From Gordonia sihwensis NBRC 108236 (GTDB taxonomy: Bacteria; Actinomycetota; Actinomycetes; Mycobacteriales; Mycobacteriaceae), in assembly GCF_000333035.1 (NCBI RefSeq), contig NZ_BANU01000016.1, forward strand, positions 1 through 64,000: a stretch of 64,000 bases of DNA. The letters are read 5' to 3'. The notes under the pieces are model-generated. The model worked only from the letters and a program-made list of their open reading frames with translations. It ran no database searches and was not told where the DNA came from. Below, piece by piece: positions 34,040 through 44,175 of this stretch; position 1 is the first letter of the stretch; the number at the start of each line of letters is the position of its first letter. A program made the translations under genes and the position numbers.

Positions 34040-34312
34040 TCAGTTCAGCGATTCGAGGTGCCGCGCAAACTCTTCGGCGGCCTTCTTGGTGTTGTGCAGG
34101 TTCACTGACAGCCTGTCGATGTCCTGGTTCGCCTGATCGAGCGCGTACGAGAGTTGTCCGATCGGCCCAGAACCGCCGCGGCCGAGGACCGCATGAACCT
34201 GTCTGATGTTGCGGTTCAGGGACTGCTTCAGACCGGCGGCCTGCCGATTCGCGTCCTCCGACTTCCGTGCCAGCTGTTTCACCTGGCGGGTGAGTTCCTC
34301 GTGTTTCGACAT
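34040..34312 (-). CDS. Small helical protein, last gene of the chaperone-FtsK operon
   Basis: This 90-residue protein is predicted as two helices separated by a glycine turn: HEELTRQVKQLARKSEDANR, then GRGGSGPIG, then SYALDQANQDIDRLSVNL. The size and helix-turn-helix hairpin shape recall WXG100-type secreted proteins, but there is no WXG motif. The ATG overlaps the previous stop as TGATG. No family is recognised. It may form a hetero-hairpin with the preceding product. Confidence 0.7.
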   Translation of the reverse strand: MSKHEELTRQVKQLARKSEDANRQAAGLKQSLNRNIRQVHAVLGRGGSGPIGQLSYALDQANQDIDRLSVNLHNTKKAAEEFARHLESLN

Positions 34313-34572
34313 CAGAGCCTCCTGGCGATGTCTTCGGCCTGCCGCATCGCAGCGGCGATGCGCTGCTGCAATGCATCCAGGCTCACCGAACTGGCCTGCA
34401 GAGCATTGACCATCCGGTCGTCGGCCTTGGTCGAGGTCGAACCGGCGACCCTGCGGACCTCGCTCGACAGGTTCCGGACTTCCCCGTGCTGGCTGCGAAT
34501 CAGCCGTTCTAACTGCTGCAACGTCGAAACCGCCTGCATGACCGCCTGTCGTTCAGCCTGTACTTCACTCAT
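34312..34572 (-). CDS. Small coiled-coil protein in the chaperone-FtsK operon
   Basis: This 86-residue, almost wholly helical protein has heptad repeats (QAVMQAVSTLQQLERLIRS; VNALQASSVSLDALQQRIAA). It has no signal peptide, no cysteine and no known domain. It lies 16 nt after the tail-anchored coiled-coil gene and overlaps the next gene. Pairing with the 90-residue neighbour is likely from size and coupling. Confidence 0.7.
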   Translation of the reverse strand: MSEVQAERQAVMQAVSTLQQLERLIRSQHGEVRNLSSEVRRVAGSTSTKADDRMVNALQASSVSLDALQQRIAAAMRQAEDIARRL

Positions 34573-34588
34573 GAAGCCTCCATTGTCT

Positions 34589-35206
34589 CTAAAGAATCAG
34601 GACCAGCACGATGATGAGAACGATGAGCGTCCCGACCGCGCCCGCCACGATCGCACCCGTACGGCTCGGTGCCGGCGGTGCGGGCAGCGGATCGGTGGCC
34701 ACCGGCTTCGCCACGCGGGTCGGCTCGTGCCGTCTACGCTCGTCGACCGCACGTTCCCGTGCCTCGGCGAGCTTTCGCTCGCGCTCGGCCTGTTTCGCCG
34801 TGAGTTCTTCACGTCGCGCCGCCCGGTCGGCCTCGTCTCGCGCGATTCGCTTCTTCGCGCGCTCGTACCCCTCCACGACCGACGCGTGCTTCTGGAGGCG
34901 GCCGACGACGAGTTCGAGGTCGGCCAGCACCACGTGCGCGTGTCTGGCCTGCTGTGGAACGGCCGCGGCCGGCACCCGATCGAGCCCGATCGTCCGCGCC
35001 GCCGCATCCAGCTGCTCGGACAGTGCGTCGCGCCGCCCGTCGAGCCCGGCAAGGCACTGTTCGCGGTCTGCAGCCTCCACCGCCACGTTCCGTTCCCGTT
35101 CCTGGAAGAGGTGATCCGACCTCCGCCGCTCGTCGATCAGCTCTCCGTCGATCGCCGCGAGATCGTTCACCGCCCCCAGATACCGGTCCCATGCCGTGTC
35201 CGTCAT
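34589..35206 (-). CDS. Tail-anchored coiled-coil protein in the chaperone-FtsK operon
   Basis: This 205-residue protein has a long charged coiled coil (about 20-155, with KRIARDEADRAARREELTAK) and a Pro-rich hinge. It ends in one C-terminal membrane helix (TGAIVAGAVGTLIVLIIVLV). Such topology places the coiled coil in the cytoplasm with its tail in the membrane. The ATG overlaps the FtsK-like stop as ATGA. It may dock the ATPase or chaperones at the membrane. Confidence 0.75.
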   Translation of the reverse strand: MTDTAWDRYLGAVNDLAAIDGELIDERRRSDHLFQERERNVAVEAADREQCLAGLDGRRDALSEQLDAAARTIGLDRVPAAAVPQQARHAHVVLADLELVVGRLQKHASVVEGYERAKKRIARDEADRAARREELTAKQAERERKLAEARERAVDERRRHEPTRVAKPVATDPLPAPPAPSRTGAIVAGAVGTLIVLIIVLVLIL

Positions 35207-37935
35207 ATCGGGATGCTCACCTCCGTCTTCTCGATACCGTTCTGCGGCAACGCAGCCGGATCGAACGGAACCAACAGATCCTGCCGACCGCTGCTCCTGT
35301 CGACGACGACGACGCGCGGTCCGCTGAAGTCCATGCGCCCGGTGCCCGGCGCCAGCAGGTCGGTCTGCGATCCCGGTTCGGTCAGGACGATCGTCCGGAA
35401 GCCGTCGCGAAGTTCGCCCGCCGTCCTCGCGTCGTATGAGCTCATCGAGCGGAACCTGATCACGAAGAGCATGCCGCAGGCAATCGATCGCTTGATGAAG
35501 CGCTCCACCGCCTCGATCGGACGCGGGTATTCGTCTGAATCGACCAGCGACGCGATGTCGTCGGGGTCGTCGAGGATGATCACCCGCTCGATGCGGCTGC
35601 TCGGCACCGCCGTCCGCGCTGTCAGGGTACGCAGGAAGCTATCCGCCTCTTCCGCTGAGATCCGCTGGATTCCCGCTTCGTTCGCCCACGGACCGACGTC
35701 ATCGAGCCCAACGCCCGAGCTGTCGATGACGGTCCACTGCGCGGAGGCGAGATCGGACGCGCGAATGGATGCGTGGATCGACGACAGCACCGCCCTGGTG
35801 CGGTCGAGGTCGTCGCCGATCAGCGCGACGTTGCCGAGTCGGCCGCGCTTCAGCGAGAATCCCTGCGCGGTTCCACCGACGCTGATCGGGACTCCGACCG
35901 TGGCGATCTCTCGATCGTCAGCTGGGATCCACTCGGCGTAGGCGGAACTCACGAAGGTGCTGGGACGCCGGGGAGTGAAGCCATCCGCCATCGCCCGGCT
36001 GAACAGTTCCGTCTGCAGCCGGTCCAGGTAGGCGGGATCGGCCCACACCACCGAACCGATCCGATTGGCCGCCAGATGTCCGAGATCATCGTTGAACACC
36101 GCCTGACCACGCCCGTGCAGATCTCCCGCGGCGAGGTTCCCCGCACCGAGGATCGTCTCCGACTCGTGTTCGGTGTTCCGCAGCGAGATCCGGTTGTGGA
36201 ACTGACCGAAGATGGCGTCACGCTTGAGCGCGAGCGCTTGAATACCAGACAGCGTCTGCGATGCGAGCACCAGGTGGACCCCGTAGGCGCGGCCCTTCCG
36301 AGCGAGGTGTTCGATCAGCTGCACCGCTCGTTGCGCGACATCGTCGTCCGGTTCGAAGAGCACCTGAAACTCGTCGGCCACCAACACCAGCCGCGGCATG
36401 TCCCGACCTGTCAGCGCCCGATAGTCCGCGAGCGAAGACGCGCCCGCCGACTTGAAAGCGTCCGCCCTGCGGTCGAACTCGGAGGCGAGATGCTCCAAAA
36501 CCGCCACGCCGTACGCTCGATCGCTCTCCAGGCCGAGGGAGTCGACGTGCGGCAACCAGGTCTCGTCGCCGGTCGGTGCGAGCCGCGCGAACTCGACGCC
36601 CTCTTTGAAATCCAACAGGTGAAAACGAACGTCCCGCGGCGAGTACCGGCTCGCGAGACCATAGATCAAGCAGAGCAGCAGGTTCGACTTTCCCGTGCCG
36701 ACGGCGCCGCCGATGAGCGCGTTCGGCGCGGGCGGATTCGCACTCCGGAGTTCCAGGCCGCCGAGTCCGCCGGGCATTCTCGCGAAGATGCCCGATAGCC
36801 CGTCGTCGCCGCGATCGGACCATCCGGCATCGATCTCGGCGAGGACCGCCTCCAAGGTCATCGTCCCCTGCGCCGCGGCCTCGATCGCTTCGGCCCTCGC
36901 GTGGATCAAGTTGTTCCGCGCCGCTGGGGTGGGCGACGGATCAGCCCGAACCGACAATCCGGGCACGGCCGCGAACGAATCCGACCGGATCTCGCCGGCC
37001 GCGTCGACCCGGACCAGCCCGCGGTCGACGTCGACCTGTGCCCGATCACCCACGCGGATCGGGCCATCGACGTACCCCGGGCTCGCGATCAGCAGAAACA
37101 CGCCGCGCCCGGCCGCCGATTCGACGATCCTATTGAGATCGTCAGCGGCGGTCTCGGTGACTCCGCTCGGTGCGTCGAGCAGGACCGCGAGTTCGAGACG
37201 CCCCGCCTGCGACAGCGGCAGGTCCCGATGATCGGCCGCACCCGCCGTGCTCATCGTCTCCGCAGCCCGGCCGATTCTGTCGATGAGCCCGGACAACAGC
37301 CTCCGCAACCCGTCCTCGGTCTGGATCGCGGGCGGGTACCCGATCGGATCGGTGTCGCGGAACAACGACGTGAAGCCGAGGATCCCACGGAGCCTGGGAT
37401 CGAACACCGAGACCCGCAGGGACTCCGGCGGCGCCGACAGCGCCAGTCTGAGCACGGTGTCCGCGATCAACTGCTCGGCACCGCTGCCACCGACGACCCA
37501 CCCCGAGACGCCGATCAACGGAAGAAGCGCCGGCGCACCACCCGGGAGGGTGCCGACCCGGACCGCCGACGGTACCGCCCGCGCCGGCTGCGGCACGCTC
37601 AGCGCCCGCGCAGCCCATCCGGCACCGGCCGCACCGGGCGCGAGTTCCTCGGCTGCGGCCCGCAGCGCCGCCCCAACAGCCCGCGTCCGCCGCACGGCAT
37701 CAGCCTGCAGCTTCGCCTCCGCCTCTTCCTTCTCGCGCCGGAGTCGCCGCCGCTGCGCCGCCAGCTCGTCGTCGAGCGTTGTCCGCGTGATCGACAGCGC
37801 GATGTCGATCTCCCCGAGGAGCCTGCCGGCTTCGGCTGTGAGGCCGCCGGCCTCGGCCATCGTCGCGGCCATCGCGTCGGTGAGGCGGCGACGAGCGTCC
37901 TGCTGATCGTCACGGCCGGTACCGCCACTAGTCAT
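35203..37935 (-). CDS. FtsK/SpoIIIE-type ATPase
   Basis: This 910-residue protein has an N-terminal coiled coil (about 15-90), a middle region including VSVFDPRLRGILGF, and one FtsK/HerA-type motor. Walker A is GGAVGTGKSN (409-418), a FHLLDFKEGVEF motif lies near 441-450, and Walker B is RLVLVADEFQ (Asp521-Glu522). A second degenerate nucleotide-binding fold may follow at the C terminus. No membrane helix is evident, so membrane contact would need its tail-anchored partner. ATG 37935 is chosen because it overlaps the GrpE stop by 8 bp. It may move DNA or protein; type VII-like secretion is one possibility. Confidence 0.85.
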   Translation of the reverse strand: MTSGGTGRDDQQDARRRLTDAMAATMAEAGGLTAEAGRLLGEIDIALSITRTTLDDELAAQRRRLRREKEEAEAKLQADAVRRTRAVGAALRAAAEELAPGAAGAGWAARALSVPQPARAVPSAVRVGTLPGGAPALLPLIGVSGWVVGGSGAEQLIADTVLRLALSAPPESLRVSVFDPRLRGILGFTSLFRDTDPIGYPPAIQTEDGLRRLLSGLIDRIGRAAETMSTAGAADHRDLPLSQAGRLELAVLLDAPSGVTETAADDLNRIVESAAGRGVFLLIASPGYVDGPIRVGDRAQVDVDRGLVRVDAAGEIRSDSFAAVPGLSVRADPSPTPAARNNLIHARAEAIEAAAQGTMTLEAVLAEIDAGWSDRGDDGLSGIFARMPGGLGGLELRSANPPAPNALIGGAVGTGKSNLLLCLIYGLASRYSPRDVRFHLLDFKEGVEFARLAPTGDETWLPHVDSLGLESDRAYGVAVLEHLASEFDRRADAFKSAGASSLADYRALTGRDMPRLVLVADEFQVLFEPDDDVAQRAVQLIEHLARKGRAYGVHLVLASQTLSGIQALALKRDAIFGQFHNRISLRNTEHESETILGAGNLAAGDLHGRGQAVFNDDLGHLAANRIGSVVWADPAYLDRLQTELFSRAMADGFTPRRPSTFVSSAYAEWIPADDREIATVGVPISVGGTAQGFSLKRGRLGNVALIGDDLDRTRAVLSSIHASIRASDLASAQWTVIDSSGVGLDDVGPWANEAGIQRISAEEADSFLRTLTARTAVPSSRIERVIILDDPDDIASLVDSDEYPRPIEAVERFIKRSIACGMLFVIRFRSMSSYDARTAGELRDGFRTIVLTEPGSQTDLLAPGTGRMDFSGPRVVVVDRSSGRQDLLVPFDPAALPQNGIEKTEVSIPI

Positions 37936-38422
37936 CCGCCGCGCCGTTCTGTCCAGGAGCCCTCGGTCCCGCGGCCACGACCACGCCCGCCGGGCGCAGC
38001 ACGCGACCGTCCAGTTCGAAACCGCGGACGGTGCGTCCGGTGATAGCGCCTTCGGGGGCGTCGGCGACAACGACCGACTCGATGCGATGTCTCCGCGGGT
38101 CGACATCTCCGTCGACGCCGATCTGCTCGACCCCGAAGTCCTCCAGGATCTGGATCACCTCGTCTCGAACGGACTCTGCGAGCGGGTCCGCCTCACCGTC
38201 CCAGTTGTCGACACGGTCGATGACATTCATCAGCCGGGTGGCGACGGGCCGGAGCACTCGCCCTACCAGCAGGGTCTCGTCGAGCGCCGACTTGGCCCGC
38301 AGCTCCCCGAGCAACTCCTGGCCACGGTTGTCGTTGAGGAGCCGTCTCCGGAAGAGCTCCGTGAGGTCGTCGAGCCGCTTCGAGACATCGGCGAGCGTCT
38401 GATCCACCGGTTCTCCGATCAT
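37928..38422 (-). CDS. GrpE-like nucleotide exchange factor
   Basis: This 164-residue protein has a helical N terminus with LGELRAKSALDETLLVGRVL. Its GrpE-type beta head reads DPRRHRIESVVVADAPEGAITGRTV and GFELDGRVLRPAGVVVA. It should exchange nucleotide on the Hsp70 encoded just upstream, whose stop it overlaps as ATGA. The sequence is too divergent to be the housekeeping GrpE, and the context says it is dedicated to this operon. Confidence 0.8.
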   Translation of the reverse strand: MIGEPVDQTLADVSKRLDDLTELFRRRLLNDNRGQELLGELRAKSALDETLLVGRVLRPVATRLMNVIDRVDNWDGEADPLAESVRDEVIQILEDFGVEQIGVDGDVDPRRHRIESVVVADAPEGAITGRTVRGFELDGRVLRPAGVVVAAGPRAPGQNGAADD

Positions 38423-39945
38423 GTGAACTGCGCGGACGCGACCAACTCGCGCGCTTGCGCCATCCGCTTGGGATCCATCTCGCCGGGACGCTTCACTTCC
38501 ATCTCGCCGAGGTTGATCCCTTCGGTCAGATCGATGACCTGGACGTGAATGATCCCGTCGATGTCCGCCGAGAAGATCACCCGCACGCCACTGCCCGCTG
38601 CACGGCCCGGCGGAACCTTCAGCATGCTCTCACCGAGACTCTTGACCTGCGCTTCAAGCACCCCGTCGACGTCATGCGACACGATCTGCAGCCTGATCTC
38701 CTGCTGATTCTCGACGGGTAGGCCGAAATCATGCTCCGCCTGAGCCGGAATGGACGTCTGCGGCGGGATCAACTGGGTGTAGGCAAGCTGTGAGGCGGCG
38801 TTGAGCGCCAGCACCCCGACACCTTGCGAGATGACATCTGAGAAGTCGATGCTGCCACCGGCCGGCATGTCCGGCGCCGCTCCGGCCCTGTCCGCCGACA
38901 CCTTGTCGGCGACGATCGCCGCACCGAGCGCCACCGCCTGATCCGGGTGGACCGACTTGTCCGGAGTCTGACCGGTCAACCGTTCCACCAGATTCTGGAC
39001 CATCGGCATACGAGTGGATCCGCCGACCAGAAGGACCTTGTCGATCGCCGAGTACGAGACCCCCGCCGTCTCGACCGATTCGTCGACCAGGAACTCCGTC
39101 GTCTTGAGCAGGAACGACGCCGCCGACTCGAACTCCTGCCGTGTCACCTGAACTTTCACGTTCTGACCCAGGGCCGAGATGAAGACGGTCGCCTTCTCCG
39201 CCTGCGACAACCGGCGCTTGGTGTCTTCGACGGCATCCATGACCTGCAGATACTGGTCGGTGGGAATCGGCTGACCGGTCTGCTCCTTGAACTTCTCGTT
39301 CACCACACCGAACAGGGCGTTGTTGAAGTCGAAACCACCGAGGTTGCGGTCGCCGAGCGAGGCCAGGACGGTGAAGTCATTGTTCTGGCAGCGCAGCACC
39401 GTGACGTCGAAAGTGCCGCCGCCGAGGTCGTAGACGAGGAGGGTTCCGGAGAATCCCGAACCGACTCCGAAGCTCAGAGCCGCTGCGGTCGGCTCGTTGA
39501 TCAACTGCAGCACGGTGAGGCCGGCGATCTCCGCGGCCGTCCGCGTCGCGTTGCGGTGTTCGTCCTCGAAGTACGCGGGCACCGTGATGACCACGTCGGT
39601 GATCTCCTCGCCCAGGACGTTCTCGGCGCTGGCGACCAACTTGGTGAGGATCAGAGCGGACAGGTCCTCCGCGCGGTACTCGTTGTCGTTGCTGTCCGGA
39701 ACGAAGACGAAGTCGGTGTTGCCCATCTGGCGCTTTATGAGCGACGCCACATCGCCTTCCGCCTTCGCCCGCATGTTCTCAGCGCAGACGCCGAGGGAGA
39801 CCTCCTCGCCGTCGAAGTACAGCACCGACGGCGTCGTGTAGTCGCCGTCGTCGTTCCGGATCACCTCCGGCGCCCCAGCCTCGATGGCTGCCACCGCGGA
39901 GTACGTCGTCCCGAGGTCGATTCCAACGGCTCTACCCATGTCCAT
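38419..39945 (-). CDS. Hsp70 (DnaK-like) chaperone without a full lid
   Basis: This 508-residue protein has intact ATPase motifs GIDLGTTYSAV, VYDLGGGTFDVTV and LLVGGSTRMPMV. A beta substrate-binding domain ends near IDGIIHVQVIDLTEG. Only a short helix (PKRMAQARELVASAQFT) follows. The ~100-residue helical lid and EEVD-like tail of DnaK are missing. It lies between the J-like and GrpE-like genes, so the three form a complete but specialised chaperone set. Confidence 0.9.
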   Translation of the reverse strand: MDMGRAVGIDLGTTYSAVAAIEAGAPEVIRNDDGDYTTPSVLYFDGEEVSLGVCAENMRAKAEGDVASLIKRQMGNTDFVFVPDSNDNEYRAEDLSALILTKLVASAENVLGEEITDVVITVPAYFEDEHRNATRTAAEIAGLTVLQLINEPTAAALSFGVGSGFSGTLLVYDLGGGTFDVTVLRCQNNDFTVLASLGDRNLGGFDFNNALFGVVNEKFKEQTGQPIPTDQYLQVMDAVEDTKRRLSQAEKATVFISALGQNVKVQVTRQEFESAASFLLKTTEFLVDESVETAGVSYSAIDKVLLVGGSTRMPMVQNLVERLTGQTPDKSVHPDQAVALGAAIVADKVSADRAGAAPDMPAGGSIDFSDVISQGVGVLALNAASQLAYTQLIPPQTSIPAQAEHDFGLPVENQQEIRLQIVSHDVDGVLEAQVKSLGESMLKVPPGRAAGSGVRVIFSADIDGIIHVQVIDLTEGINLGEMEVKRPGEMDPKRMAQARELVASAQFT

Positions 39946-39981
39946 GAACCTTTCGTCGCAGTCGGTACCCAGCCGGCCAGG

Positions 39982-41097
39982 TCAGCCGATGTATCCCTGC
40001 AGGTAGCCCTTGCGCAGGTCGTCACGGTCGTTGGCCTTGTATCGCGGCACCCAGCAGGTGAAGTAGATGCCCGCACCGGCCGCGACAGCGAGGAGCACAC
40101 CGATCACCGTGAGGCCGATGATCGCGCCGATGACGATGCACAGGATCGGGGAGGCGAGGATCAGCGCCTTCTGACCCCATCCGTCGCCGGGGACGCTGAA
40201 GACCTGCTCCTCGCTGGTATCGAGGAAGCGGCTGATCTTGTCCAGTTCCTTCGCCATCTCCGGATCTCGGTTGTGCGCCATCGCCTCGGCGATCAACGGT
40301 CGCATCTGCTCGATCTCGGACTTCGACGTGATCATGTACTGACCGCGCCCGTTGTATCGCGGGATGCTCTCCGCCTTGAGTGCGAGGAGGGTTGCGTAGT
40401 AGTCGAAGACGATCTGCGCGCCCTGGAAGCGCTGCAGGTGCTGCCGGATGAAGTCGAGCGCATCGTCGAGCTGCCCGTTGTCGGACATGACGTTGGCGAC
40501 CGCCACCATGTACTGCGGCGCGGAAGGATCCAGCTGCATCGACACTTGGTATGCGTTGATCGCATCCTGGAACTGCGCCAACTTCTCGAAGATCATGCCC
40601 AGCTGGAAGTGGTACTCCGGGTTGTTGGCCTCGATGGTGGTCGCCTGGCGTGCCTCGTACAGAGCGTCCTGAAGGTTTCCCAGACCGGCATTGGCGCGAG
40701 AGCGGAGACCCCACGACTCCGCGCTGTTGCCGATCGAGTGAGTGGCCTCGCGAGCCGAGTACGCCGCAGAGTGGTAATCGCCTCGGCCGAGCTCCTCCCG
40801 CGCCCGAGCCACCCAGTCCGTGCCCTCGCCCGCCGCCTGCTGCGTCTGCGGCTGCGCGACGCCGGCGGTCTGCAGTTCGCGGTCATAGGCCGCGCGGCGC
40901 TGCGGATCGAGCAGCGTGTCGCTGGCCTCACGAAGCCGCGCCATCCACGTCTCCGCCTCCTGCCGAGTACTGAGGTCCGGAGAGTTCGTCGCTTTGCGCC
41001 ACAACCGCAGTTTCGATTTCAAAGCCGCATTGATGGTGTCATCGTCGGCATCGCGCGCGATCTCGAGCACGGCATAGAAGTCAACACTGACTGCCAT
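39982..41097 (-). CDS. J-like domain/TPR membrane protein, first gene of the chaperone-FtsK operon
   Basis: This 371-residue protein starts with a J-domain-like fold (VDFYAVLEIARDADDDTINA, ending DTLLDPQRRAAYDREL). The usual HPD loop reads SPD (ATNSPDLST), so the key His is missing. TPR-like helices follow (~95-260: SAESWGLRSRANAGLG, NPEYHFQLGMIFEKLAQFQD). A hydrophobic hairpin (ALILASPILCIVIGAIIGLT) lies near the C terminus. ATG 41097 has GAGGAGA upstream; the longer frame crosses the terminator at 41288. It probably links the Hsp70 to clients at the membrane. Confidence 0.82.
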   Translation of the reverse strand: MAVSVDFYAVLEIARDADDDTINAALKSKLRLWRKATNSPDLSTRQEAETWMARLREASDTLLDPQRRAAYDRELQTAGVAQPQTQQAAGEGTDWVARAREELGRGDYHSAAYSAREATHSIGNSAESWGLRSRANAGLGNLQDALYEARQATTIEANNPEYHFQLGMIFEKLAQFQDAINAYQVSMQLDPSAPQYMVAVANVMSDNGQLDDALDFIRQHLQRFQGAQIVFDYYATLLALKAESIPRYNGRGQYMITSKSEIEQMRPLIAEAMAHNRDPEMAKELDKISRFLDTSEEQVFSVPGDGWGQKALILASPILCIVIGAIIGLTVIGVLLAVAAGAGIYFTCWVPRYKANDRDDLRKGYLQGYIG

Positions 41098-41337: not shown

Positions 41338-41478
41338 TCAGTTCCCCGCGCCGCAGTGCGGACAGTTCACCGTGACCCGGTTCCACGACCGCTTACCCCA
41401 GAAAGCTCGGCTGCAACTCCGGCATCTGTGCGGTTCCGTGAAATCGCCTGACCGCGACGATGATCCAGTCTCTGCCAT
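41338..41478 (-). CDS. Small zinc-ribbon protein
   Basis: This 46-residue protein has two Cys pairs (CRSCSRAF and CPHCGAGN) separated by ~18 residues, a one-domain zinc ribbon. ATG 41478 lies 5 nt after the stop of the Cys-rich peptide gene; an upstream start at 41526 is possible. A good terminator begins 13 bp after its stop. Both points support a real gene. Function unknown. Confidence 0.55.
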   Translation of the reverse strand: MAETGSSSRSGDFTEPHRCRSCSRAFWGKRSWNRVTVNCPHCGAGN

Positions 41479-41483
41479 GGTCG

Positions 41484-41594
41484 TCAGCTCTTGGACGCAA
41501 CCGAACAGCGCGGCAAGTTCTTGCACTGATGCACGCTCCGGTCGTTCACATTAGCCTCTTTGCAGTATGCACAACTGCAGTTGCACTGAGCCAT
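41484..41594 (-). CDS. Cysteine-rich 36-residue peptide
   Basis: The peptide starts MAQCNCSCAYCKEAN and has six cysteines, the last two in HQCKNLPRC, so it could bind metal. AAGGAG lies about 8 nt before ATG 41594. The frame extends upstream to 41684 (MHGKKLIALADAIF), so a 66-residue form is an alternative. It is followed closely by the zinc-ribbon gene. No family is recognised. Confidence 0.5.
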   Translation of the reverse strand: MAQCNCSCAYCKEANVNDRSVHQCKNLPRCSVASKS

Positions 41595-42975: not shown

Positions 42976-44175
42976 GTGAGCCCCACCGCGACCACCGTGC
43001 TCGTCGTTCCCCTCCTGGTCTTCGCAGCGCCGCTCCTGGCGAGATCCGTCTCTCGTTGGGCAGCGGTTCCGGTGGTCGTCTTCGAACTCGGCCTCGGCAT
43101 CGTGGCCGGCCCCGCGCTGCTGGGCTGGGTCGGTGAATCGGAACTGTTCGGCCGGCTCTCCGACTTCGGTGTCAACCTGCTGTTCTTCATCGCAGGAACC
43201 GAGATCACCCGGTCGGCGGTTCGCGGACGCACGGCTCGGCGCGCCTGGCTCGGCTGGCTGATCAGCATCGCGGTCGGGATCGCGGCGGGCTTCGCTGTCT
43301 CACCCGGATTGGGCGCGGTGATCATCGGGATCAGTCTGGCGTCGACGGCTCTGGGAACCTTGCTGCCGATCCTCCGCGACTCCGGTGACCTCGCCACACC
43401 GTTCGGCGTCGCCGTCGGAGCGATCGGCGCCGCGGGCGAGTTCGGGCCGATCATCGCCATCTCGCTATTCCTCGGCGGCCGCTCGTTCGGTACGGCGAGC
43501 GTGGTGCTCTTGGTCTTCGGCGTCATCGCGGCGGCCGCCGTGATCCGGGCGCGCCGCACCTCTCATCGCCGCCTGCACGCCTTCGTCGAATCGACCCTGC
43601 ACACGTCGGCGCAGTTCGCCGTCCGCACCGTGCTGGCCATTCTGGCCGTGATGATCTTCCTGACCGTCCAGCTCGGCATCGACATGCTGCTGGGCGCATT
43701 CACCGCGGGGATCGTCTGGAAGCTCCTCATCCGAGATGCCGACGAACAGACGCAGCGGTCGGTGGAGGCCAAGATCGACGCCGTCGCGTTCGGCTTCCTC
43801 GTCCCGATCTTCTTCGTCTACACGGGTGTGAAGTTCGATCTGCAGTCGCTGCTCGATCATCCGCTCGCCTTCGCCTGGATCCCCGTCGTCCTGGTGGCTC
43901 TGCTCCTGGTCCGCGGGCTGCCCTCGATGCTCGCCGCACCCGAGGGCGCCGGCCGCCGCGAGCGAATCGCCACCGGGCTCTACGGCGCCACCGGCCTTCC
44001 GATCATCGCGGTCGCCACCGACATCGGTGTCCGCCAAGACGTCTTGACCGGCACGCAGGCAGCGGTCCTCGTCGGCGCCGGCGTGCTGTCGGTGCTCCTG
44101 TTCCCGCTCGCCGCGAGCGCACTGCGCCCGGGGTCGGTCGAACGGAGTCCGGCGGCGTCGGTGGTCGAAGAGTGA
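42976..44175 (+). CDS. CPA2-family cation/proton antiporter
   Basis: This 399-residue protein has about 12 membrane helices typical of Na+(K+)/H+ exchangers (VFELGLGIVAGPALLGWV, GVNLLFFIAGTEI, GLYGATGLPIIAVATDIG). No RCK/TrkA domain follows. It starts at GTG 42976, 58 bp after the TerC-like gene and in the same direction, so the two may form a small ion-homeostasis unit. Confidence 0.88.
   Translation: MSPTATTVLVVPLLVFAAPLLARSVSRWAAVPVVVFELGLGIVAGPALLGWVGESELFGRLSDFGVNLLFFIAGTEITRSAVRGRTARRAWLGWLISIAVGIAAGFAVSPGLGAVIIGISLASTALGTLLPILRDSGDLATPFGVAVGAIGAAGEFGPIIAISLFLGGRSFGTASVVLLVFGVIAAAAVIRARRTSHRRLHAFVESTLHTSAQFAVRTVLAILAVMIFLTVQLGIDMLLGAFTAGIVWKLLIRDADEQTQRSVEAKIDAVAFGFLVPIFFVYTGVKFDLQSLLDHPLAFAWIPVVLVALLLVRGLPSMLAAPEGAGRRERIATGLYGATGLPIIAVATDIGVRQDVLTGTQAAVLVGAGVLSVLLFPLAASALRPGSVERSPAASVVEE

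Follow-up and report, generated by a model that had tools for sequence, protein, structure and literature searches.

Gene content and arrangement of the operon

We analyzed a stretch of 64,000 nucleotides from Gordonia sihwensis NBRC 108236 (contig NZ_BANU01000016.1, positions 1 to 64,000; contig C49 of the 4.14 Mb genome), in the following called the window, and focused on an operon at positions 34040-41097 that may well encode a type VII-like export machine with its own chaperones. An initial annotation, made from the sequence, had described seven leftward genes in this order, and a check of reading frames and translations located all seven on the minus strand:

39982..41097, minus strand: J-like/TPR protein, 371 aa; Pfam DnaJ and TPR matches above cut-off; J-like domain (no HPD, reads N-S-P-D), TPR repeats and a predicted C-terminal membrane helix
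38419..39945, minus strand: Hsp70 without C-terminal lid, 508 aa; Pfam HSP70 match and alignment to the genome's own DnaK; nucleotide-binding motifs retained
37928..38422, minus strand: GrpE-like factor, 164 aa; Pfam GrpE match
35203..37935, minus strand: EccC/EssC-type ATPase according to profile and Foldseek, 910 aa; no membrane helix predicted by hydropathy
34589..35206, minus strand: coiled-coil protein with a predicted C-terminal membrane anchor (sequence, hydropathy), 205 aa
34312..34572, minus strand: small protein F, 86 aa, predicted hairpin (pLDDT of the model 90.4); family profile E 1.7e-24, with F in the training set
34040..34312, minus strand: small protein G, 90 aa, paralogue of F by family alignment; family profile E 1.2e-28, with G in the training set

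The starts of the J-like/TPR and ATPase genes were chosen among in-frame starts, and the frames extend to 41325 and 38106, respectively. As the annotation had stated, five of the six junctions are overlaps or gaps of at most 16 nt. The J-like/TPR and Hsp70 genes are separated by 36 nt, followed by overlaps of 4 nt (ATGA) between Hsp70 and GrpE-like factor, 8 nt (ATGACTAG) between GrpE-like factor and ATPase, and 4 nt (ATGA) between ATPase and coiled-coil protein, a gap of 16 nt in front of small protein F, and an overlap of 1 nt (TGATG) between F and G.

Pfam matches exceeded the curated cut-offs for DnaJ (32.4 bits, cut-off 27.8), TPR_2 (38.2, cut-off 27), HSP70 (353.2, cut-off 20.6), GrpE (35.3, cut-off 25.8) and FtsK_SpoIIIE (78.7, cut-off 24), while the coiled-coil protein, F and G reached no Pfam cut-off. 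NCBIfam and PADLOC agreed with this picture; the NCBIfam matches stayed below the NCBIfam cut-offs, and those of PADLOC were limited to the ATPase core (SspH, mad8, HerA), one TPR stretch and weak coiled-coil matches. By hydropathy, one C-terminal membrane segment each is predicted in the coiled-coil protein (residues 186-204) and the J-like protein (318-336).

An ATPase of the type VII secretion type

On whole-chain profile and fold comparison, the protein first annotated as an FtsK/SpoIIIE-type ATPase is of the EccC/EssC type, the ATPase of type VII secretion. The underlying Pfam match holds, and the assignment was sharpened by a profile of 11 relatives, which matched solved structures of EccC at 5.3e-39 and of FtsK at 4.1e-11. 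The nearest NCBIfam models were the type VII ATPases EccCa (7.6e-27), EssC and EccCb. With the predicted model (mean pLDDT 78.3), the first Foldseek row was the cytoplasmic part of EccC (4nh0) over 896 columns, with a loose overall superposition (TM 0.37), and structure comparison aligned residues 90-353 to the DUF domain of EccC5. An identification as FtsK DNA translocase was rejected, as EccC was far ahead by whole-chain profile and Foldseek E-value, although the central ATPase domain alone still aligned best with FtsK motor domains (by Z).

The predicted layout comprises an N-terminal coiled coil (11-98), a domain resembling the EccC 'DUF' (approximately 105-353), an ATPase domain (approximately 356-650, Walker A at 410-418) and a degenerate C-terminal ATPase-like domain (approximately 660-894). 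Lysine 416 of Walker A and the pair D521/E522 were invariant in all 28 aligned rows, and no Walker A was seen by eye in the first and third domains, in either the sequence or the alignment. By these features, the protein has three ATPase-like domains of which the middle one alone is predicted to be active, preceded by a coiled coil and without a predicted membrane helix. Among the homologous loci (numbered with L below), hydropathy likewise gave no membrane helix for the ATPases of L113, L039 and L168, and one marginal segment (1.64) for that of L037.

Conservation and distribution of the gene set

In 18 further loci, genes for the ATPase, the Hsp70 and the J-like protein are again found together, in varying gene order, so that their grouping is more than chance; this was the outcome of the co-occurrence check proposed with the initial annotation. 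A GrpE-like match was present in 13 of the resulting 19 Hsp70+J loci and absent from L168, L169, L216, L217, L170 and L171. The pairs L034/L186, L037/L166 and L033/L214 are the same contigs, so each pair entered the counts as one locus; L041 and L043 are nearly identical.

An ATPase tree was calculated from 77 of 124 loci, the other 47 being left out for short flanks or low score. One branch of 22 rows (support 90) holds 19 rows with both Hsp70 and J-like genes; among the other 55 rows, none has both and two have a lone Hsp70. On this tree, the Hsp70+J label changes 3 times compared with a shuffled mean of 17.0, and two of the changes are readable as losses (L035/L036 and L038). Since the window ATPase is only 23-43% identical to the aligned members of its branch, the association of ATPase and chaperones appears to be old.

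Genomes were searched with the ATPase profile at a limit of 1e-60, and part of the matches were fetched with their flanks. In the family of the window genome, 13 of 401 genomes matched, and at least 6 of these are of the Hsp70 type (G000, G192, G001, G150, G989, G987); flanks were fetched for all of the 13 but G945 and G089. The order sample gave 161 matching genomes out of 397, of which 9 scored above 650 bits; 8 of these have Hsp70+J, and the ninth (G249) lies on a cut contig. Most other matches in the order resemble a sister branch, and an Hsp70 was nearby in none of the 23 sister loci examined (L172-L185, L191-L199). In the phylum sample, 8 of 396 genomes matched, three of them Hsp70-type (G000, G717, G844). 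Family f12 carries the ATPase in 5 of 5 genomes, the four with uncut contigs having Hsp70+J, and family f16 in 2 of 112, one being Hsp70-type.

The sister system without chaperones was observed in family f15 as an 86-aa small protein, a protein of approximately 360 aa and the ATPase (L184:8642-12668, L192:8707-12731). Most listed genomes of genus g45 have two matches, and the system is perhaps a core function there. In another sister locus (L116:6042-7862, genome G031), WRD-containing small proteins adjoin a TerD-domain protein (PF02342, 8.5e-80).

Altered Hsp70, J-like and GrpE-like proteins

The Hsp70 was aligned for 13 of the 19 Hsp70+J loci, window included. In comparison with the genome's own DnaK, an ordinary protein encoded separately outside the window, the C-terminal lid is absent from 13 of 13 sequences, while the motifs GIDLGTT, DLGGGTFD and VGGS are retained in all of them. 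None has the exact VLLL linker, and a few (e.g. L187, L114) retain two or three of its hydrophobic residues. HPD is absent from all 11 aligned J-like proteins, three of which retain H-P without D, and from all 18 further sequences selected from the best homologues (some overlap with the 11). Of the GrpE profile, the GrpE-like protein covers the C-terminal part only (95-164 of 165). J proteins and Hsp70 are coupled through HPD and the interdomain linker; that both are lost here suggests a relay that is changed rather than dead. Lid, linker and HPD are lost together, and this offers a natural test of a minimal Hsp70 relay. The initial annotation had not noted these alterations. A search of phage records gave 36 with Hsp70s below 60% identity.

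Small proteins, coiled-coil protein and toxin-like carriers of the module

F and G are paralogues of one family, which profile and alignment found in most of the Hsp70+J loci. The model of F is a two-helix hairpin (helices 2-43 and 49-85). Neither F nor G has a WxG motif, and many homologues show a GG[ST]-like turn instead. Many of the homologues are annotated as YukE by JGI. In a comparison with solved structures, ESAT-6 (1wa8_B) was matched with an E of 0.0017, ranked fourth behind designed coiled coils, and the best Foldseek E for the hairpin model was 0.14; such structure searches with helical hairpins are uninformative. A comparison with hhalign scored 23.1, the same as a reversed control, and a reading of the small proteins as proven WXG100 proteins thus had no support above that control.

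The single C-terminal membrane segment predicted in the coiled-coil protein is also found in L113, L114, L115, L033, L215, L168 and L170. By hydropathy, the number is 2 in L037, 4 in L038 and 7 in L041, and in these three the protein might form a channel.

In six of the 19 Hsp70+J loci, seven larger proteins start with the domain of approximately 90 residues that makes up the small proteins (family profile). With this, the check for effector genes beside homologous loci, suggested in the initial annotation, revealed toxin-type cargo adjoining the system in six relatives. Three carriers have a Pfam toxin domain, namely an ADP-ribosyltransferase (L039), an EndoU RNase (L042) and a glutamine deamidase (L114, from the genus of the window). 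The carriers of L115 and L215 have a common C-terminal part without Pfam match, and L037 has two carriers without a Pfam toxin match. A protein database searched with the same query gave four proteins, including P0004 from Blastococcus, which has a glutamine deamidase domain. The match of the module in the toxin-like proteins to the small proteins was far above reversed and shuffled controls, and 5 of 6 held up under leave-one-out at approximately 1e-5. The 105 loci without Hsp70+J gave three weak module matches, none of them at the head of a longer protein.

In L114, L115 and L215, the toxin-length gene is directly followed by a small partner gene, which may give immunity; the partner genes of L115 and L215 are homologous to each other. 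Behind the L042 toxin, no partner gene was seen on its strand. The Modestobacter locus (L037:2574-5106) apparently has two module carriers, each followed by a small partner frame and divergent from the system. In the window's own genome, profile searches for a toxin gave nothing convincing besides F and G, and no toxin carrier was found in the window or close to the system in L113, L033 and the four uncut f12 loci.

Genomic location and possible mobility

In five genomes of the same genus, the left flank is collinear with the window up to an inositol-phosphate synthase gene, and the seven operon proteins had no match at 1e-5 in these flanks. The matches to the synthase and to an antiporter (window 42976-44175) lie approximately 340 bases apart in G1140 and approximately 2 kb apart in G008, so that the intervening block is absent there. 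Otherwise, the right flank is variable. A copy in Rhodococcus pseudokoreensis R79 is located on a 102 kb plasmid near annotated TniB, TniQ, integrase/transposase and recombinase genes. Both this copy and that of Gordonia iterans include a toxin-like gene. Three plasmid records matched the ATPase at 1e-30, and the full set was seen in the one examined.

L039 is a contig of a Saccharibacteria metagenome-assembled genome. Here, a high-GC stretch of approximately 15 kb (L039:1-16000) holds the full system together with integrase- and MT-A70-like frames seen by eye, and the GC content falls from approximately 0.65 to 0.45 towards 15-16 kb; the stretch may be a transferred island or a chimera. Upstream of the window operon lie two short cysteine-rich frames (41339-41594), one of them zinc-ribbon-like by eye, and a small frame beside the toxin-like gene of L114 (L114:16632-16763) resembles them. 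Farther away, window 7058-7186 matches the Rfam ALIL pseudoknot (70.4 bits), the frameshift element of IS3-type insertion sequences, so that an insertion sequence probably lies there.

Proposed function and rival explanations

Taken together, we lean towards reading the operon as a chaperone-fed, type VII-like machine that would export small proteins and, in relatives, module-headed toxins. The type VII-like membrane machine with dedicated chaperones proposed in the initial annotation thereby gains support from the EccC/EssC-like ATPase, the conserved set and the toxin-type cargo. Export itself we infer from gene content; it is favored because the kin of the ATPase are secretion motors, the module is common to small proteins and toxins, and two components have predicted membrane anchors. 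In LXG systems, too, small proteins and toxins have a cargo module in common. As six related clusters carry toxin-like proteins headed by the small-protein module, the system is likely a self-contained exporter of antibacterial proteins.

In the proposed mechanism, the coiled-coil protein would pair with the N-terminal coiled coil of the ATPase and act in trans as membrane anchor and stalk, which in EccC belong to the same chain. The J-like/TPR protein would bring the lidless Hsp70 to the membrane, where the Hsp70, reset by the GrpE-like factor, could keep the helical module or a partly unfolded toxin export-ready. The module would then dock on the ATPase, and the single active ring would drive its passage across the membrane through a putative pore, for which the multi-segment coiled-coil protein of L037, L038 and L041 is a candidate. 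The neighboring partner gene would protect the producer. More tentatively, and on balance doubtful in its full extent, this would be an Hsp70-driven exporter in which the tail-anchored stalk and a stripped Hsp70/J-like/GrpE-like relay replace the built-in anchor and the usual dedicated chaperones, TPR membrane tethering replaces the HPD/linker coupling, and antibacterial toxins are fired, in one case from a plasmid. The main gap is the channel. No EccD-type channel is encoded on C49, and the EccD model matched the own genome at two places only, the starts of C26 (98.1 bits, above the cut-off) and C44 (84.9, below it), each holding a portion of an EccD.

The missing EccD-like channel in the locus would suit an intracellular conflict system, in which chaperones and ATPase act as a sensor that silences module-bearing toxins and releases them in the own cell upon infection or damage, with no export. 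We regard this explanation as rather unlikely, though predicted defense or conflict systems include both Hsp70/GrpE/DnaJ modules and EssC-like ATPases. According to PMC7159879, HSP70 and GrpE occur with DnaJ or TPR proteins in predicted actinobacterial conflict systems, most of them without a sign of effector secretion, and CoCoNuT type III-A operons have EssC-like ATPases without membrane helices plus Hsp70-like domains (PMC11090510). Plasmid and variable-site locations fit defense as well as offense. However, partner genes placed after the toxin gene, as in L114, L115 and L215 (though not L042), are the arrangement of secreted polymorphic toxins, the two predicted membrane anchors and the nearness of the ATPase to protein-secretion ATPases also speak against it, and the defense models of PADLOC matched little beyond the ATPase core.

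Improbable, in our judgment, is a housekeeping or envelope-stress unit, i.e., a membrane chaperone-ATPase complex remodeling envelope or cytoskeletal clients, with the toxins as chance or later additions. The consistent presence in family f12 and the loci lacking a toxin carrier (the window, L113, L033 and the four of f12) agree with it, but the patchy presence in the own family, the plasmid copy, the site without operon in five same-genus genomes and the strength of the module match relative to its controls do not. We consider it very unlikely that the locus is a DNA translocase or plasmid-maintenance module: the whole-chain comparisons place the ATPase with EccC, in Gordonia iterans and Dietzia, the system is found on contigs of 4.0 and 3.9 Mb, and no relaxase or partition gene recurred in the locus maps by eye. 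If the export reading is true, the operon-borne Hsp70 team would be a new way of readying export cargo, and a lidless Hsp70 that serves a single narrow client would be a rarity. The locus is a compact, transferable toxin-export candidate in actinobacteria.

Comparison with known systems

Type VII systems have special chaperones of their own; in canonical systems, these are EspG or LXG-specific partners, where the window operon has Hsp70. The canonical systems (ESX/T7SSa, T7SSb) are alike in the EccC/EssC-type ATPase and helical proteins of approximately 90 aa, and differ from our locus, which has no EccD and an ATPase without predicted membrane helices. LXG toxins of type VII systems are polymorphic toxins with a helical N-terminal module, a layout like the one found here.

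A literature search, with subscription journals mostly outside its reach, found no publication in which the Hsp70/J/GrpE triad accompanies an EccC-like ATPase. The statement of the initial annotation that this is not a described system therefore stands for the combination, but not for its parts, since PMC11090510 has the motor with WXG100-type proteins and PMC7159879 the Hsp70/GrpE/DnaJ-TPR module. Already known are thus the motor type with small proteins (in passing) and the chaperone module in another setting, whereas three things were not found in print in the literature searched: the stable union of ATPase and chaperones in one lineage, the way in which lid, linker and HPD are lost together, and the module carried by toxins.

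The GAP1-N2 GTPase systems with an HSP70 theme also bring together HSP70, GrpE and a DnaJ or TPR protein in actinobacteria (PMC7159879). There, the module belongs to a GTPase-centered system built on GTPases and FNIII proteins, with no EccC-like ATPase among the parts named in the section on it. No GAP1/GTPase or FNIII gene is named in the annotated Rhodococcus plasmid region, where no profile search was aimed at them. The CoCoNuT type III-A extended operons resemble our locus in an EssC-like ATPase that lacks membrane helices, a pair of small proteins (there of WXG100 type) and an Hsp70-like domain; according to PMC11090510, their core is a McrBC-type GTPase with nucleases, and their Hsp70-like domains are reported to have degenerate Walker A-like motifs, compared with the intact nucleotide-binding motifs here.

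Closest are the mobile type VII-like units, whose three-domain ATPase has only its middle domain active (PMC3482391, PMC11090510). PMC11090510 (2024), citing Anantharaman et al. 2012, describes such an ATPase that begins with a coiled coil, lacks membrane helices and comes with two WXG100-type proteins. The units are like our system in the middle-active ATPase, the N-terminal coiled coil, the lack of a membrane helix, the two small proteins and the mobile-looking distribution. Our system differs in having genes of its own for Hsp70, J-like/TPR, GrpE-like and tail-anchored proteins, small proteins without WxG, an almost exclusively actinobacterial distribution in this sample and, in relatives, toxins that carry the small-protein module.

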